DNA of 32,232 bases from Salinivirgaceae bacterium (GTDB taxonomy: Bacteria > Bacteroidota > Bacteroidia > Bacteroidales > SZUA-534): NCBI GenBank assembly GCA_016342715.1, contig JAEINW010000034.1:1-32232 (forward strand), read 5' to 3'. Shown piece by piece: positions 4,868-21,324 of this stretch (the first letter of the stretch is position 1; the number at the start of each line of letters is the position of its first letter). The notes beneath the pieces are model-generated. The model made no database searches. It was not told the DNA's origin and saw only the letters and a list, made by a program, of their open reading frames with translations. The translations under genes were made by a program, and so were the position numbers.

Positions 4868-7774
4868 TTACAATCCGTTTTCTTTAAATAAATTAACATA
4901 TTTAATGTCGTCTTGTGTAAATTGAATGTATAACCATTCTTTTATGTAAGTCATTATTTCATCCAATAATTTCACTTTGTTTCCTGAATAATCTTTTTGG
5001 AACTGACTAATTTCTTTTATGAACTCTTTATGTTTGCTTGCGTGACTTTCAGAATTTTCAAAACTAAATTGTTCAAAGTAATGCTCTTCATTCCCAAAAT
5101 GATAGGATGCGTAATCAACAAAACTCTTTATGTTATCTTTCACTTCCTTTTTAGTTTTTTCATTTTTTAACGAAATGTAAATGCTATTTGCAAGATTCAC
5201 TAACTGTTCATGTTGTTCATCCATTTCACTAATTCCCAATACATATTCATCGGTCCAATCTAACAAATTGTCGCCAGTAGCTGTAATCGTTAAAACAGGT
5301 TTTTCTTCAATTTTTGCTGTTTCTTTAATGCTTTTTACTTCTTGAATTTTAGTTGTGCTTGAATTTTTAAGTGCTTGCTCAAGCGTTTTAATTTTTGATA
5401 GATACTCGTTTATAATCAACTGCTGTTCTTTCAGTTTGTTTTCTTGTTCTACAATTTTTGATTCATCTTGCTTTTGTTCGGTAATATCAAAACCTATTTT
5501 TAAAATTTTATAAGGCTTATCATCGTGTTGACTAATAATTGGAGAATAGGTTTCTTCTATCCAAAGCTCCTTGCCATTGTATTCTACTTTGTTGCTTTCT
5601 TTTTTTGAAATGCCTCTTCGTAAATCGCCCCAGAATAAATCATAATTTGCTTTCTTTTCGGGATTAAAAATATAACCTGTAGAATGTTTTTGTCCTACAA
5701 TTTGGTCTAGCTTAAGTCCAAGCATTTGGGCATACTTATCGTTGCAGCTTAAAATGGTTCCTTCTAAATCATATTCAACGGTAAAGGCTGTTGAACCGAG
5801 GGCATGTATAATTCCTGTGGTTTCATATTCTCTTCGCGCCGATTCTTCTTGAGTAGCCTGTAATTCTTCAAGGTTTTGACGCATCTCCTCTTCTTGAGCA
5901 GCTAATTCTTCAGCTTGATGTTTTGACTGATTAAGTAATTCATTGGTTTTTTCATTTACTTTTACCGATGAAATAGTAGATGCAATACTTTCACCAAGTT
6001 TTTCAACAAATTTGATTTGATAATCTTCAATATTATGAAACGATGCTAACTCAATAACACCATAGGGTTCATCATTTAAAATCAGTGGGACTAACAATAA
6101 AGCCTGTGGATTTGCAGTTCCCATGCCCGAAGTAATTTGTATGTAATCGTTCGGGATGTCTGTCATGTATATAGTTTTATTCTCAAAGGCACAGCGGCCT
6201 ACGAGTTCTTCTCCAACCGCAATTCTTTTGTTAATAAACTTGTCTCTACCATAAGCAATTGTGGTTTGAAGATCAAGATATAATTCCGTATCATCGGTAT
6301 CGTCAATTACAAATAATGCTCCCTGATTTACTTTTAAATAGTCAACGAGATTACTCATTATATTGAATGATAAATCTTTAATGTTGTTTGAATTTGTTCG
6401 AAGAATATCGCCAAACTTAGCTAATCCTTGTGTAGCCCAGTTTTGTTTTTCGTCTTCAATTTTTCTTTTCTTTTCTTCTTCTTCTGCATGTATTAAACTC
6501 TTGCGCATTTCTAAAAGAGCATTTCCCAATACATCCTTTTCACTTAATGGCTCAAACTCGGCATTTAAGTTTCCTTGCCCAATTTGTTCTGCAAAATCAG
6601 ATGTTTTATCTAAACCATCTTTAAGAGTATTCACTGAATTGGCCATTTCTTCAATTTCATCGCCAGAATGAATGTTTAGGTTTTGAACCCCTTCAATATC
6701 ACCTTTTGAAAGTTTTTGAAGTATGTCGGTGGTTTTATTTAAGGATTTACTAATTGATTTAGAGATGGATACAATAATAATAGTCAGAATAAGTAAGCCC
6801 AAAAAAGCAACGATAAGTGAAATGATTTGTGACCTGTTTGCTTCTTTTAAAATTACATCAATAGGAATGGTTAATACAAGAGACCAAGGTGTATTTAGCT
6901 CTCCAACTTGAATGGGTGAAATTGATACAAGAACATCTTTTTTGTTTTTGTCTTTTGCACGAAAAACGCCTGATTTCCCTTCTTTAATAAGTTTCGAAAT
7001 TTGAAATTGATCTTCAAATCCTGATTCGTATTTTGCAATGTTTTCTCCAATTAACTTGATATTTGGGTGACCTACAAAAACTCCTTCATTTGATGTTAAA
7101 AAAGCTATTGTATTATCATACGGTTTAATTTTTTCAATAATTTTTTGAAAGCGATCCATTATTATATCAGCAGCCACTATTCCACCATATTGCCCTTGAT
7201 AATAAATTGGGGATGATAAACTGGTCATAAATTTCTTGGCCTCCCCTTGTTCAACAACTTCATCCCAGTAGGGTTCCCATAATAGATCCATAAGGTTTTC
7301 CTTTACCCACTTGTATTTCCCTGCATCACCATCAATACTTCTAAGCGATGTACTATGTGATATCACATTATTTTCTTTCATCAGTACATGGGCTTCTCTT
7401 CCATAATCATTTGTCCATGTAGTGTCAATGAAGCGTAATTCCCAACTATCCCAAAGCTTATATAAATCAGGAGTGTTTTCGTATACCTTGTAATACATTT
7501 TCATAAAAAGAGATTGCCATTCTTCAGGTTCCATGTTTTCGTATACTTGAAATGCTTTGGCAAGTGTTCGAAGTGTAACTAAATCGTTCGATAATTCTTT
7601 TTCAATTTTAAGTGCATTTTCAGCAGTTACTCTTTGCGCTAGTTTTTCAGCATCATTTAGCGCTAATTGTCGGGTTTTATAGCTAATATATCCAACCGAT
7701 GAGGCGAAAATTAAAATTGATGTGATTAGTATGTAAACCAGCATCTTAGTATTAATCGTCATTTTTAGTTTCAT
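4868..7774 (-). CDS. Cache-HAMP-GAF-PAS sensor with C-terminal hemerythrin domain
   Basis: This is a membrane sensor of 968 aa. Visible parts in order are TM1 (11-31), an extracytoplasmic dCache region (about 35-305), TM2 (316-338), HAMP with a second HAMP-like stretch (about 338-430), GAF (about 455-605), an acidic coiled coil (605-650), PAS (651-768), another coiled coil and a hemerythrin domain (about 839-968). No histidine kinase, MCP, GGDEF/EAL or HTH output is present. Hemerythrin ligands visible by spacing are H855, H892, E896, H911, H915 and D956. The position of the fifth His is Q951 (codon at 4922-4924, CAA on the minus strand), five residues before D956 as in the canonical family. 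O2, NO or redox sensing is likely, but the altered di-iron site makes the mode uncertain. The gene is monocistronic, with its own terminator. Confidence 0.88.
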   Translation of the reverse strand: MKLKMTINTKMLVYILITSILIFASSVGYISYKTRQLALNDAEKLAQRVTAENALKIEKELSNDLVTLRTLAKAFQVYENMEPEEWQSLFMKMYYKVYENTPDLYKLWDSWELRFIDTTWTNDYGREAHVLMKENNVISHSTSLRSIDGDAGKYKWVKENLMDLLWEPYWDEVVEQGEAKKFMTSLSSPIYYQGQYGGIVAADIIMDRFQKIIEKIKPYDNTIAFLTSNEGVFVGHPNIKLIGENIAKYESGFEDQFQISKLIKEGKSGVFRAKDKNKKDVLVSISPIQVGELNTPWSLVLTIPIDVILKEANRSQIISLIVAFLGLLILTIIIVSISKSISKSLNKTTDILQKLSKGDIEGVQNLNIHSGDEIEEMANSVNTLKDGLDKTSDFAEQIGQGNLNAEFEPLSEKDVLGNALLEMRKSLIHAEEEEKKRKIEDEKQNWATQGLAKFGDILRTNSNNIKDLSFNIMSNLVDYLKVNQGALFVIDDTDDTELYLDLQTTIAYGRDKFINKRIAVGEELVGRCAFENKTIYMTDIPNDYIQITSGMGTANPQALLLVPLILNDEPYGVIELASFHNIEDYQIKFVEKLGESIASTISSVKVNEKTNELLNQSKHQAEELAAQEEEMRQNLEELQATQEESARREYETTGIIHALGSTAFTVEYDLEGTILSCNDKYAQMLGLKLDQIVGQKHSTGYIFNPEKKANYDLFWGDLRRGISKKESNKVEYNGKELWIEETYSPIISQHDDKPYKILKIGFDITEQKQDESKIVEQENKLKEQQLIINEYLSKIKTLEQALKNSSTTKIQEVKSIKETAKIEEKPVLTITATGDNLLDWTDEYVLGISEMDEQHEQLVNLANSIYISLKNEKTKKEVKDNIKSFVDYASYHFGNEEHYFEQFSFENSESHASKHKEFIKEISQFQKDYSGNKVKLLDEIMTYIKEWLYIQFTQDDIKYVNLFKENGL

Positions 7775-15619: not shown

Positions 15620-15914
15620 GTAGTTCATTTTCAACATGTGCAAAAAGCTAATTATTAAAGGGTTATTTGTAATGGTTTAAATATTTATTCATTTTTTAGC
15701 AAAATGTGACTTCAATTCATGCCTGATTATTGCTTACAAAAACAATTTTATAGTAGAATTAAAATATCATGTTAAAAAATGAGACTGTTATTTAATTAGA
15801 ATTAAATTGTAAGCTTATTGAAGCCTTGATGGTTCAAAGCTTTGAGAATTCATAATTTTTTCATTACTTGCATATAAATATGTTAGCAACCTTATAACCT
15901 GTTGTATGATTATC

Positions 15915-16802
15915 ATGAAAAGGTATTTTGTTTTATTTGGCTGTTTCGTTCTACTTGCAACATCTTGCAAGAATGACAAAAAGGGAACAGTGAATGTTGA
16001 AAAAGCTTTAGAAGTTGAATTAGACACCACCAGTAAAGTCATTAAGTTTGAGAATTCTTTATTTAGTATTCCATCTCCTTATCAATTATCGATATTAATT
16101 AAGGAGATTGGAGCTAATTATAATTCAGAATTATTGAATCCATCGGATAACTTTAAGCAGTATACCAGTTTGTTTAAAAAATCGATAAATCTGGGTATTT
16201 ATGGAGCCGACTTGGCGTATTTAAATATTTATGAGCAATCGCCCTCTGCAATTACTTATTTTTCAGTTATAAAAATTTTAGCGCAAGACTTAGGTTTAAG
16301 TGCAGCTTTCAGTCCTAAAATATTCAGTAGAATTGAAAACAATATCGATAATCAAGATTCTCTATTGTTTATCATGTCAAACACTTATCGTGATGTCGAT
16401 TTCTTTCTTAAAGAAAATCAAAGACAACGAGAAGGTACACTGGTTTTAGCTGGAGGTTGGATTGAGGCAATGCATATTCTTACAAAATTGGCTATCGAAA
16501 CAAAAAGCGAACAGCTTATTCAACGAGTAGGTGAAAATAAGCAGCCTCTGGAAAACCTAATTAAAATTTTGCAACCTTATTATAATGAATCAGAGGATAT
16601 TGAGAAATTGATTGAAGACTTAATTGATTTGTCATATGAATTTGATGCGGTTGAAACAGCATATAAGTATGTAGAGCCTACAACTGAACCCGAAAATAAA
16701 ATAACTAGGGTACATTCAGAAACCAAAATTGTAATTACAGAAAGTGTATTAAAAGTGATTGATTCAAAAATTGAAGAAATTAGAAACTTGCTAATCAAAT
16801 AA
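15915..16802 (+). CDS. Lipoprotein of unknown function, first gene of ABC transporter operon
   Basis: Not assigned to a named family. The N-terminus MKRYFVLFGCFVLLATSC is a lipoprotein signal peptide, with cleavage before the Cys of LLATSC and lysine and aspartate residues after it. The mature part (about 275 aa) looks mainly alpha-helical, with the segment SINLGIYGADLAYLNIYEQ near residues 90-110. No catalytic motif or transmembrane helix follows the signal. An ATG at 15906 is also in frame; the ATG at 15915 gives the cleaner signal peptide. The stop is 4 bp before the next gene, and the ABC transporter gene follows on the same strand, so it is probably an envelope partner of that transporter. 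Function unknown. Confidence 0.75.
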   Translation: MKRYFVLFGCFVLLATSCKNDKKGTVNVEKALEVELDTTSKVIKFENSLFSIPSPYQLSILIKEIGANYNSELLNPSDNFKQYTSLFKKSINLGIYGADLAYLNIYEQSPSAITYFSVIKILAQDLGLSAAFSPKIFSRIENNIDNQDSLLFIMSNTYRDVDFFLKENQRQREGTLVLAGGWIEAMHILTKLAIETKSEQLIQRVGENKQPLENLIKILQPYYNESEDIEKLIEDLIDLSYEFDAVETAYKYVEPTTEPENKITRVHSETKIVITESVLKVIDSKIEEIRNLLIK

Positions 16803-16806
16803 TAAT

Positions 16807-17229
16807 ATGAAAATGAAAAAATTAGCACTAATCTCTATATTAGTTGTCTTTGCTTTTTCGAGCAAAATATTTGCCCAGTTAGATTCTACCTTAAATTTAT
16901 GTCAATCGCACATGAATTTACCTTATATATCCGATGGGCAGTCGTATACTGCTCTTTTAAATGGAGATGAAGTTGCTGAGTTTTATGCAACATTTTATGG
17001 AGAGAGTACCTACAGAATTGTTGGTTATAGTGGATCTAATGAGGGGAACTTGATTTTTTCAGTGTATGATCAAGAACGGAATTTATTGTTTACAAACAAC
17101 GACTATCAAAACATTCCATTTTGGGATTTTGAATTTGATTATACAATGGATTGTATTATAGAAGCTAAACTCGATGCAAAAAATTTAACCTCTGGTATTG
17201 CTGTATTGCTTATTGGATTTCAACAATAA
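16807..17229 (+). CDS. Small secreted protein of unknown function
   Basis: This encodes 140 aa starting with a Sec signal peptide (MKMKKLALISILVVFAFSSK, likely cut after IFAQ at residue 24). The mature protein of about 115 residues is predicted to be beta-rich and acidic, with two cysteines and no transmembrane helix. It starts 4 bp after the lipoprotein gene and ends 26 bp before the ABC transporter gene, so it is the middle gene of a probable three-gene operon. It could be a periplasmic subunit or a substrate of the transporter. No known family was recognised. Confidence 0.7.
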   Translation: MKMKKLALISILVVFAFSSKIFAQLDSTLNLCQSHMNLPYISDGQSYTALLNGDEVAEFYATFYGESTYRIVGYSGSNEGNLIFSVYDQERNLLFTNNDYQNIPFWDFEFDYTMDCIIEAKLDAKNLTSGIAVLLIGFQQ

Positions 17230-17255: not shown

Positions 17256-20200
17256 ATGAGCGAGAGGATTCTGAAAGCTTTAATGCAATTATTCGCAATT
17301 ATTGCTGGTCCCAGGACTAACAATAGGAATGGAAGAAGCATTGTAGAATCGTTTCTAAAACAACAGCTCAACGAAGGGATAGTAGATGAATATCTCATAT
17401 TATTCGATGGCTACTACGCACTTTACCAAAAAAGGCAATCTCGTGAAGGGAAAAAGGAAAAAAACCTATCACTAAGCTCCGTTAAAGTTTTAAAAATATG
17501 TACTCAAATAAATGAGGAGTTATCGTTGCGCCAAAAAGTTGTGGTGCTGATAAGACTTTTTGAATTTGTTAAAACTGATAACGAAATTTCTGATCAGGAA
17601 CTAGAATTTATTTACACCGTTTCTGATATTTTCCATTTTACTATTGACGATTTTGAAAAATTAAAGCAATATGTGTTAAGTGATTTTGAAAATATGCCTC
17701 AAAATGCACACATGTTATTAATAGATGGCGATTTAGCAACAAACAAAACAAATGTTAGGCATCTATTTCAAGAGTCGTTTGAGGATAAAATATGGGTAGT
17801 GTATTTTGCTTCAGCAGATATGTATTTGGCTAGGTGCTTTGGCGATCATGAATTATATTTGAATGGTCAGTTAGTGTTGATCGATCGAGTTTATGTGCTT
17901 ACTCAGGGTTCGGCCTTGCGCAATTCCAAAATGCAACCCATTTACTATTCCGATATTATAAGTACGTATTATTCAGGCGACATTGGTGATAAAACTCAAT
18001 TTGAAGCAAGAAATCTCGAATATGTATTTAAGGGTGGCAAAAAAGGTTTAAATAATATCAATTTTGTCGAAGAGTCAGGAAATTTAATTGGTATTATGGG
18101 AGCCAGTGGGGCTGGAAAAAGTACTTTGTTAAATGTTTTAAATGGGAGTTATCGTCCATCGGTTGGAATAGTTACAATTAATGGAATTGACATTCATAAC
18201 GATAAACATAAAATTGAAGGATTAATAGGTTATGTTTCTCAGGATGATTTGCTTATTGAGGAACTTTCGGTATATCAAAACTTATATTTCAATGCCAAAT
18301 TATGTTTTGGTAATCTTTCTACTTTTCAATTAAACAGAAAGGTATTAAGAATTCTTCAAAACCTTGGATTGCTTGAAATTAGAAATATGATTGTAGGTTC
18401 ACCACTAAACAAAAAAATTAGTGGTGGGCAGCGTAAAAGATTAAATATTGCTTTAGAATTAATTCGTGAACCAGCTATTTTATTTCTTGATGAACCTACT
18501 TCTGGTTTATCCTCAAGAGATTCAGAGAATATAATGGATCTTTTAAAGGAATTAACTTTAAAAGGAAAATTAATTTTTGTTGTTATTCACCAGCCTTCGT
18601 CCGATATTTTTAAAATGTTTGATAAGCTTTTTATTTTAGATCAAGGAGGTTATTTGATATATAATGGTAATCCTGTTGATTCTATAATTTATTTTAAATC
18701 AAAAGTGCATCAAGCGAATTGGAATGATAGTGAATGTAGGCTATGTGGAAATGTAAATCCCGAGCAAATATTTAATATTGTTGAATCAAAAGTCCTAGAT
18801 GAATACGGTACGGTAACTCATAATAGAAGAAAAACGCCTCAGGAATGGTATAAATATTTTAATAAAAATTCAAAATTTGATTCTGAAGTTGAAAAAATAA
18901 CAGACCAATTACCACCTATATCATTCAAAATTCCAAATAAAATTAAGCAGTTTTCAGTTTTTGTAACACGCGATGTGCTTTCAAAACTTTCAAACATACA
19001 ATATTTGGTAATAAATATTTTAGAAGCTCCAGTGCTAGCATTTATTTTATCATACATAATTAAATATTACAGCTTAAATAGCGACGGGTACTCATTAAGT
19101 ACCAATCCAAACTTGCCTGTTTATATATTTATGTCCGTAATTATTGCAATTTTTATTGGATTAACTGTTAGTGCTGAAGAAATAATAAAAGACAGAAAAA
19201 TACTTAAAAGAGAGCGCTTTTTAAATTTAAGCAGAACTAGCTATTTGTTTTCTAAAATTGCAATATTGCTTGTTATTTCAGCATTTCAAGCTATGTTTTT
19301 TGTGCTAATCGGAAATAGTATCATGGGAATACAAGGAATGTATTTTCAATATTGGCTTGTTTTATTTAGTACATGGTTTTGTGCTTCTTTGTTAGGTCTT
19401 AATATTTCTGACAGTTTTGACACTGTAGTAACTATTTATATATTAATACCATTTTTAGTGATTCCTCAATTGGTATTAAGTGGTGTTATAGTATCTTATG
19501 ATAAATTAAATCCGAATATTTCTTCGCCTGCGAATGTTCCTTGGTTTGGCGAGATTATTACAGCTCGATGGTCATATGAAGCACTGGCTGTGTATCAGTT
19601 TGCTGAGAATGAATATGAAAAACAATTTTACCCCTATAATAAAGTAATGAGTCATGCCGATTTTATGAAAAATTACTGGGTAAAAACACTTTTAAACAAG
19701 GTGTCGTATTGTGAAAGGAACTATAAAAATCCTGTAAAACAGTTAAAAATAAAGGAAGAATTACTAGTGTTGAGAAATGAAATACGAAAGGAGATGCAAT
19801 TAAATTCCTATGTAACATTTAGTAATCTAAACGATTTATATTTTGATAAGATTAATGAAGCTGTATTTAATAAAACAAATAATTATCTTAATTTCCTTAA
19901 AACTTATTATTTAAAACGGTATAATAAAGCAAATAACTTAAAGGATGAGTTAATTAATTCGCTACAAAAAACACCTGCTGAAAAAATTGCTTTTTTAAAT
20001 ACAAAAAAACAACATACAAATGAAAATTTAACCACATTTGTTAGGAATACGAATTCCTTAGAAAGAATTATAGAAGTTGAGGGAGCGCTAATTCAAAAGA
20101 TTGATCCTATATATTTAGAACCAGAAGGAAGTTTTATTAAAGCTCATTTTTATTCACCATCAAAAAATGTATTTGGCAAAACATACAGCACTTTATGGGT

Positions 20201-20327
20201 GAATATTGTAGTTGTTTGGGCTTTTAATTTACTGTTATATATAACTCTTCATTTTCGAGCATTAAGACGAATTATTGAATATTTTGCTTCAAAAAAGTAT
20301 TTTAATATTGGGAATGCAAAAGATTAA
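17256..20327 (+). CDS. ABCG-like ABC transporter (ATPase-permease fusion) with TerB-like N-terminus
   Basis: This is a 1023-residue half transporter with the ATPase before the membrane domain, as in the ABCG/White family. The N-terminal part (1-245) has a TerB-like helical stretch (about 90-145, with KTDNEISDQELEF) and a beta-rich segment (about 175-235) resembling an FHA fold. The ATPase has Walker A GASGAGKST (282-290), Q-loop YVSQDD, signature ISGGQ (388-392), Walker B ILFLDEP (408-414) and H-loop IHQPSSD. The membrane part begins near 580. A long soluble insertion of about 230 residues (about 745-980) precedes the last helix and probably projects outside the membrane. The neighbouring lipoprotein and secreted protein suggest an export system. 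The transporter type is certain; the substrate is unknown. Confidence 0.87.
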   Translation: MSERILKALMQLFAIIAGPRTNNRNGRSIVESFLKQQLNEGIVDEYLILFDGYYALYQKRQSREGKKEKNLSLSSVKVLKICTQINEELSLRQKVVVLIRLFEFVKTDNEISDQELEFIYTVSDIFHFTIDDFEKLKQYVLSDFENMPQNAHMLLIDGDLATNKTNVRHLFQESFEDKIWVVYFASADMYLARCFGDHELYLNGQLVLIDRVYVLTQGSALRNSKMQPIYYSDIISTYYSGDIGDKTQFEARNLEYVFKGGKKGLNNINFVEESGNLIGIMGASGAGKSTLLNVLNGSYRPSVGIVTINGIDIHNDKHKIEGLIGYVSQDDLLIEELSVYQNLYFNAKLCFGNLSTFQLNRKVLRILQNLGLLEIRNMIVGSPLNKKISGGQRKRLNIALELIREPAILFLDEPTSGLSSRDSENIMDLLKELTLKGKLIFVVIHQPSSDIFKMFDKLFILDQGGYLIYNGNPVDSIIYFKSKVHQANWNDSECRLCGNVNPEQIFNIVESKVLDEYGTVTHNRRKTPQEWYKYFNKNSKFDSEVEKITDQLPPISFKIPNKIKQFSVFVTRDVLSKLSNIQYLVINILEAPVLAFILSYIIKYYSLNSDGYSLSTNPNLPVYIFMSVIIAIFIGLTVSAEEIIKDRKILKRERFLNLSRTSYLFSKIAILLVISAFQAMFFVLIGNSIMGIQGMYFQYWLVLFSTWFCASLLGLNISDSFDTVVTIYILIPFLVIPQLVLSGVIVSYDKLNPNISSPANVPWFGEIITARWSYEALAVYQFAENEYEKQFYPYNKVMSHADFMKNYWVKTLLNKVSYCERNYKNPVKQLKIKEELLVLRNEIRKEMQLNSYVTFSNLNDLYFDKINEAVFNKTNNYLNFLKTYYLKRYNKANNLKDELINSLQKTPAEKIAFLNTKKQHTNENLTTFVRNTNSLERIIEVEGALIQKIDPIYLEPEGSFIKAHFYSPSKNVFGKTYSTLWVNIVVVWAFNLLLYITLHFRALRRIIEYFASKKYFNIGNAKD

Positions 20328-20360
20328 GGCCATCAATGATTTTAACATCAATAGCCTTAA
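20324..20360. terminator. Probable bidirectional terminator between ABC transporter and siaC genes
   Basis: TTAAGGC (20324-20330) pairs with GCCTTAA (20354-20360), with an inner TGAT/ATCA pairing (20337-20340 and 20347-20350). It lies at the convergent ends of the ABC transporter gene (overlapping its stop) and the siaC-like gene. T-rich sequence follows on both strands, but the tracts are imperfect. Confidence 0.5.
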
Positions 20361-20378
20361 TTATTCGAAACAAAATTC

Positions 20379-20759
20379 TTACTCGTCTATTTCAATCATT
20401 TTAAATGGAATCTTAATAATTGATTGGTAATCTTCTCCAGCTTCAAGCATATCTTCATCATCCTCTTCGTAATACCAATTAATTAACACTTCGTTTCCGC
20501 TTTTGTAAATGGCTTCAAGTTTCTTAAATACGTCAAGAATACACTTTGAGCTACTAGTATTGAAATATTCCAATTGAATGTTAACTTCAGTTAGACTAGC
20601 GGGATTTGATAAATATTCTTCCAGCCAATCAACTAAAGGTTTATAAAATTCAATAGAGTTTTCAGGAATTGAGCGTCCCTTAATTTCAACTTTTCCTTTG
20701 TCGTTGTCAAAATGTACCGTTGGTGTTTTTGGTGTTCCAGCAATTGAAATTGGTTCCAT
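20379..20759 (-). CDS. siaC: SiaC family regulatory phosphoprotein (DUF1987)
   Basis: This is a small cytoplasmic STAS/anti-sigma-antagonist-like protein of the SiaC (DUF1987) family. In Pseudomonas aeruginosa, SiaC is phosphorylated by SiaB at Thr68, dephosphorylated by SiaA, and in the unphosphorylated form activates the diguanylate cyclase SiaD. Here the motif LEYFNTSSSKCIL places Thr at residue 68, the same number. The length of 126 aa is typical and the protein is acidic. It follows the siaB-like gene by 19 bp on the same strand. No SiaA-like phosphatase or GGDEF cyclase is present in the window, so the controlled target is unknown. Family assignment is strong; the role in this organism is inferred. 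Confidence 0.88.
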   Translation of the reverse strand: MEPISIAGTPKTPTVHFDNDKGKVEIKGRSIPENSIEFYKPLVDWLEEYLSNPASLTEVNIQLEYFNTSSSKCILDVFKKLEAIYKSGNEVLINWYYEEDDEDMLEAGEDYQSIIKIPFKMIEIDE

Positions 20760-20778
20760 ATGATTCCGGTTATTTAAA

Positions 20779-21324
20779 TTATTCTACAATATTTATAATT
20801 AAGCTAAAAAAATAATATTCCTTTGTGTAGTTATGAAATTCAAAATCTAATTTGCTTCCAGATTTACGTGCCATATCAACCATTCCAAGTCCACCGCCAC
20901 CTTTATCTGAAAACTCCTGATTGTTTAAAATCTCCTTATATAAATCTTTTAATTCTTCGTTATTTAATGAATTTATGTTTTCTAAATGTTTGCTTAAAAA
21001 GTCTTTTTGCTTTTGGTTAACAAAATTTCCAGCAATAATGTGATAGCCAATTTGATTTTTTGTTAATAAACAAATTGCAAATTTACCTTGTTCAACTCCA
21101 TCATCATTTTCTTTAACTGTTAATGAATGATGAAAAAGATTTTGCAAGCACTCAACCAATACATTATAAATTTTCTTCTTAGCTCTTGATGAAGCATTCT
21201 CTATGTTTTCTTCAATTTTATCAAGCGAGTCTGTAATCAGAGATCCAGAAACTACCCCTTTGAAAAGAAATAGAACTTCATCTTTACTATGTTTTGCTAA
21301 CCAATTCTGGACGCTAAAGACCAT
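20779..21324 (-). CDS. siaB: SiaB family protein kinase (DUF6272)
   Basis: This is a GHKL-fold Ser/Thr kinase of the SiaB family that phosphorylates the SiaC partner protein. The N-box-like helix is seen as YNVLVECLQNLFHHS (about 58-72), and the ATP-lid region as SDKGGGGLGMVDMARKSG (about 143-160), a G-rich motif of the anti-sigma-kinase type. There is no membrane segment and no sensor domain. The length of 181 aa is normal for the family. The start at 21324 is supported by the -7 box at 21355-21362. The siaC-like gene follows 19 bp downstream, forming a two-gene operon. How kinase activity is triggered cannot be told. Confidence 0.85.
   Translation of the reverse strand: MVFSVQNWLAKHSKDEVLFLFKGVVSGSLITDSLDKIEENIENASSRAKKKIYNVLVECLQNLFHHSLTVKENDDGVEQGKFAICLLTKNQIGYHIIAGNFVNQKQKDFLSKHLENINSLNNEELKDLYKEILNNQEFSDKGGGGLGMVDMARKSGSKLDFEFHNYTKEYYFFSLIINIVE

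Follow-up and report, generated by a model that had tools for sequence, protein, structure and literature searches.

In the partner switches RsbU/RsbW/RsbV and SpoIIE/SpoIIAB/SpoIIAA the output is a sigma factor. The system described here shares with them the logic of a PP2C phosphatase, a HATPase-type kinase and a STAS-fold substrate, but SiaB and SiaC belong to families of their own, and what recurs beside them here is a transporter. In Pseudomonas aeruginosa, whose SiaABCD system is a partner switch as well, it is the unphosphorylated form of SiaC that docks on the stalk of SiaD (PMC7647112, PMC8457831), and in the literature searched this cyclase was the only SiaC/DUF1987 output found; DUF1987 proteins have already been proposed as general modulators of adjacent proteins (eLife 2021, PMC8457831). 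A transporter under comparable control is that of the Rv1747-Rv2623-PknF system of Mycobacterium tuberculosis (PMC5549992, PMC3908365), in which Rv2623 binds the FHA domain of the ABC transporter Rv1747 through phosphothreonine (PMC5549992). It resembles what we propose here in having a cytosolic FHA front end on an exporter-like ABC transporter, with a small protein and a Ser/Thr kinase as its regulators, but its kinase and regulator belong to unrelated families (the Hanks-type PknF and a universal stress protein).

The stretch of DNA analysed here (the window; 32,232 nucleotides) is the whole of contig C8 of a 5.5 Mb, 98.4% complete genome in 358 contigs (G000). Judged from genomic context, it probably carries part of a SiaABC partner switch that acts on an ABC transporter instead of a diguanylate cyclase.

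The siaB-siaC operon of the window

The minus strand of the window contains a two-gene operon in which siaB (20779..21324; 181 aa, DUF6272, HATPase-like) and siaC (20379..20759; 126 aa, DUF1987/SiaC, STAS-like) are separated by 19 bp. The original prediction had placed a SiaB-type kinase and a SiaC-type protein at these coordinates, and the family assignments were confirmed by Pfam, NCBIfam and alignment with the solved Pseudomonas SiaB-SiaC entry as follows: SiaC matches PF09345 (SiaC; E 6e-47, 158.6 bits) and aligns with 6kko_C (E 1.6e-21), and SiaB matches PF19788 (DUF6272; E 5e-37), passes the NCBIfam "SiaB family protein kinase" model NF038262 (138 bits against a cut-off of 85) and aligns with 6kko_A of the crystal structure (E 7.6e-12). 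Both proteins fall below the NCBIfam cut-offs for the Pseudomonas equivalogs (SiaC 108.7 against 150 bits, SiaB 75.3 against 225 bits), and by these scores they are relatives of the Pseudomonas proteins, not their equivalogs.

In the 6kko_C alignment Thr68 of the window SiaC (within YFNTSSSK) falls on the threonine of the Pseudomonas sequence YLNTSSIK, which with its NTSS motif is the measured T68 phosphosite (PMC7647112, PMC8457831). Thr68 thus occupies the phospho-acceptor position, as had been predicted, and it is invariant in 66/66 transporter-adjacent SiaC proteins. Glu58 of SiaB aligns with the catalytic Glu of the SiaB N-box in 6kko_A, and the ExxQN/ExxEN motif is kept in all 75 SiaB homologues that were read. 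The SiaC protein differs from its Pseudomonas relative in having an acidic EEDDED stretch where the latter has DRRNER.

Converging on siaC from the plus strand is a gene for a 1023-aa ABC transporter (17256..20327), identified by Pfam, its AF2 model and PDB matches, which as a conserved neighbour of SiaC is the candidate SiaC target. The two stops are 51 bp apart, and between the genes lies a shared bidirectional-type terminator hairpin (20323..20361; 16-pair stem, -10.8 kcal/mol, z -4.2 by RNA folding). Two other plus-strand genes travel with the ABC gene, one for a lipoprotein-like protein (15906..16802; 298 aa, with a signal peptide and a near-invariant Cys21) and one for a small secreted protein (16807..17229; 140 aa, an ORF that is a recurrent neighbour of the ABC gene). 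The former matched no Pfam or NCBIfam family and its AF2 model (pLDDT 77) gave no convincing PDB match; the latter belongs to no known family. Elsewhere in the window (4868-7774) is a 968-aa protein with dCache, HAMP, GAF and PAS domains and a C-terminal bacteriohemerythrin, in which Pfam finds no catalytic output domain.

SiaB, SiaC and phosphatase genes across the genome

The window contains no SpoIIE/PP2C gene and no GGDEF gene. The predicted absence of a partner phosphatase therefore holds for the window, but it does not hold for the genome, which has 32 SpoIIE/PP2C phosphatase domains along with 15 SiaC matches (one a fragment; about 14 genes) and 10 SiaB domains spread over 7 proteins. 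On contig C26, genes in the order SpoIIE(GAF/PAS)-SiaB-SiaC-ABC-lipoprotein-small protein share a strand and are separated by about 1-63 bp. The phosphatase of this operon has GAF and PAS domains as sensors; among the NCBIfam models it matches SiaA best (NF038263; 7e-44), at a score below the equivalog cut-off (150 against 700 bits). A 1018-aa ABC transporter gene begins 42 bp after SiaC and is followed by genes for a lipoprotein-like and a small secreted protein; the window transporter is 47% identical to this one and is likewise accompanied by a lipoprotein and a small protein of these kinds. Thus, the SiaB-type kinase, the SiaC with T68 and NTSS in the window, and a SpoIIE/PP2C phosphatase closest to SiaA in the C26 operon are all as in SiaABCD, but an ABC transporter comes after SiaC, the window copy is without a local phosphatase, and the genome holds many paralogues.

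Two more ABC copies in this genome lie beside other phosphatase genes: one converges on a classical SpoIIE(TPR)-HATPase_c_2-STAS trio (L114:3888-10002), the canonical arrangement of the sigma-factor switches, and one follows a response-regulator-SpoIIE gene. At one locus (L017:2687-5708) the SpoIIE-SiaB-SiaC-ABC operon is preceded by genes for two CheR methyltransferases, a CheB methylesterase and a GAF membrane protein, as it is in relatives by genes of equal size, and methylation may tune the phosphatase sensor. Several variants of the SiaB and SiaC genes were also seen. Tandem SiaB-SiaB proteins of about 370 aa are encoded in the genome at L025:3680-4807, L031:4485-5594 and L032:908-2029, and in relatives some open frames of about 524 aa contain SiaC matches together with SiaB and so appear to be SiaB-SiaB-SiaC fusions (G446:C210). 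In L165 and G196:C31, SiaB-SiaC is followed by three SpoIIE genes in a row. At L020:5326-8027 the gene immediately before a SiaC gene encodes a 741-aa transporter-like protein that by eye has the look of a cation-chloride cotransporter, and duplicated MOSC-like genes come next; the pairing of this gene with SiaC is a possible second transport link.

Linkage of SiaC to the ABC transporter

How general is this pairing of SiaC and transporter? Gene orders were read from ORF maps of some 120 loci, one of which (L053) comes from a cultured relative, Marinifilum flexuosum DSM 21950. In type 1 a single strand carries CheR-CheB-GAF protein-SpoIIE-SiaB-SiaC-ABC-lipoprotein-small protein (for the three genes upstream the Pfam identifications come from the window's genome alone, and the matches elsewhere are by size and position), and in type 2, that of the window, the lipoprotein, small-protein and ABC genes in that order converge on the oppositely oriented SiaB-SiaC pair. 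The order SpoIIE-SiaB-SiaC-ABC is kept in 15/15 further tandem loci that were fetched (L118-L132), another family of the class included; in one of these (L130) SiaB is doubled and no lipoprotein gene follows ABC. Rarer layouts are SiaB-lipoprotein-small protein-ABC, lipoprotein-ABC-SiaC, and ABC divergent from SiaB-SiaC. Linkage that is repeated in such differing arrangements argues for function rather than a frozen gene order.

The order to which the window belongs was sampled with 149 genomes, in most cases a single one for each family, and these were searched for SiaC and for the N-terminal region (front end) of the transporter. SiaC was found in 63/149 and the front end in 67/149 genomes, with both in 59, neither in 78 and only one in 12 (Fisher p 1e-27, uncorrected for shared ancestry). 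Among the best 150 matches to each, at least 62 direct SiaC-ABC adjacencies were present, against 1.8 expected from the counts and genome size by a Poisson estimate that ignores shared ancestry and whose p-value is therefore not a proper probability, and chance adjacency was rejected on this comparison. These consist of 37 tandem pairs (SiaC then ABC, gaps of 22-372 bp) and 25 convergent pairs like that of the window, with no third layout within 1.5 kb among those matches; 88 of the 150 listed ABC matches do not adjoin a listed SiaC. Across 296 genomes sampled from the phylum, strong matches to the transporter occur only in the window's genome and in G045, G049, G146 and G186, each of which has one transporter copy adjoining SiaC, and the SiaC lineages outside the class are without this transporter.

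These data bear on a broader view of SiaC, namely that it is the hub of a large phospho-network (14 SiaC, 7 SiaB proteins and 32 PP2C phosphatases in the window's genome) with its real output elsewhere, for example a sigma/anti-sigma pair or a regulator, the transporter being linked to it by shared physiology and not by binding. Genomes of the order have up to 21 SiaC paralogues, and most SiaC copies do not adjoin the transporter (about 12 of the 14 in the window's genome have no adjoining ABC gene), which speaks for this view. The SiaC of convergent-type loci is also unusually conserved (mean identity 76%, against 48% for SiaB and 56% for the ABC neighbour), which suggests further partners, and this SiaC may have more than one client. 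But no other gene was seen to recur beside SiaC as the transporter does (the remaining SiaC neighbours were read by size only), the ABC gene turns up repeatedly in several arrangements and, in the SpoIIE-SiaB-SiaC operon, takes the position that SiaD has in other lineages, and even where the transporter is unlinked its presence predicted SiaC elsewhere in the genome in 48/48 public genomes searched (of 49 with an unlinked transporter), compared with SiaC in 18 of the 296 genomes of the phylum sample. We consider the hub view somewhat unlikely.

It is also conceivable, though in our judgement quite improbable, that only the tandem-type SiaC of the C26 kind acts on the transporter, and that the convergent SiaC-SiaB of the window is an old neighbour with a different target. 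The window siaC and ABC genes form distinct transcription units, divided by a terminator, and are not co-transcribed, and SiaC and ABC distances correlate more closely among tandem loci (r 0.87) than among convergent ones (r 0.57). Against this reading, at least 25 genomes of the order, and also another family of the class, retain the convergent pair while the genes on the far side of SiaB vary. In a tree of 126 columns the SiaC proteins of the two contexts group separately, with weak support.

Cyclase distribution and the proposed output

A missing cyclase had also been predicted, and this was borne out beyond the window: no GGDEF domain was detected at E 1e-3 in the whole 98%-complete genome, in a search that detected its positive controls. 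The accompanying statement that Bacteroidota mostly lack c-di-GMP signalling is right for the order, where GGDEF was found in 5/149 genomes against 63/149 for SiaC, but is too broad for the phylum, where 157/296 sampled genomes have it. Within the same phylum G133, G125 and G272 serve as a control, in that a GGDEF gene lies just downstream of their SpoIIE-SiaB-SiaC genes (all four genes were Pfam-checked in G133). A cyclase too divergent to recognise, diguanylate or other, might by analogy with these lineages and with SiaD still be what the switch controls, but the genome-wide absence of GGDEF and its rarity in the order make this extremely improbable. In the best reading SiaD's place has been taken by an exporter-like protein, and the presence of the switch beside this transporter in dozens of families suggests that it was redirected here to the control of export. 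The original expectation that SiaC has another, undescribed target is thus supported, with the neighbouring TerB/FHA-fold ABC transporter as the candidate; we found no description of a SiaC-transporter link in the literature searched, a search that had most subscription journals outside its reach.

The window transporter consists of TerB-like helices (residues ~1-145), an FHA-fold domain (~148-239), an ABC ATPase (265-416) and an ABC-2 membrane domain. The AF2 model of residues 1-245 (pLDDT 88) shows TerB-like helices and a beta domain with the FHA fold. In comparison with PDB structures PG1108 comes up as a match for the helices (Z 9.2), and residues ~148-236 match FHA structures with Z values of ~6-7 in nearly all rows (Foldseek best E 4e-3); such Z values are weak by themselves, and it is the near uniformity of the FHA match list that gives them weight. 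The model thus predicts that an FHA fold precedes the ABC/ABC-2 part. Pfam FHA gave no match in this protein, and a front-end profile found nothing among PDB sequences. Since the front end precedes the ATPase, it should be cytosolic, where SiaC is.

The Rv1747 precedent makes the FHA domain attractive as a reader of phospho-T68. However, the FHA-fold domain here is divergent and lies behind a TerB-like domain, and phosphothreonine binding by it is putative: N203-G204 is near-invariant, H198, which aligns by eye with the phosphothreonine-contacting Asn, is variable, and in that alignment the canonical FHA phosphothreonine-contact residues are not evident. For this reason a phospho-T68 reader is disfavoured and binding of unphosphorylated SiaC is preferred.

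The switch that we propose would operate as follows: SiaB would phosphorylate SiaC on T68, and a SiaA-like SpoIIE/PP2C phosphatase encoded elsewhere would remove the phosphate under the control of its sensor. SiaC in one of its phospho-states, by analogy with SiaD most likely the form without phosphate, would then dock on the cytosolic TerB/FHA-fold front end and switch the neighbouring ABC-2 transporter, which would work with the lipoprotein and small secreted protein of the same cluster. It is from genomic context that we infer this target, its direct binding by SiaC, the phospho-state that binds, and activation rather than inhibition. There is perhaps an even chance that the arrangement is a partner-switch output beyond sigma factors and nucleotide cyclases, in which SiaC directly gates an ABC-2 transporter post-translationally through its TerB/FHA-fold front end, and that it is class-wide in GGDEF-poor Bacteroidota, with the transporter in SiaD's operon place.

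SiaC/DUF1987 proteins are widespread, and their large expansion, as yet unstudied, would gain a function if a transporter is a conserved partner. Such a partner would also show one switch block plugged into different outputs across lineages, and would make export in these environmental Bacteroidota experimentally controllable.
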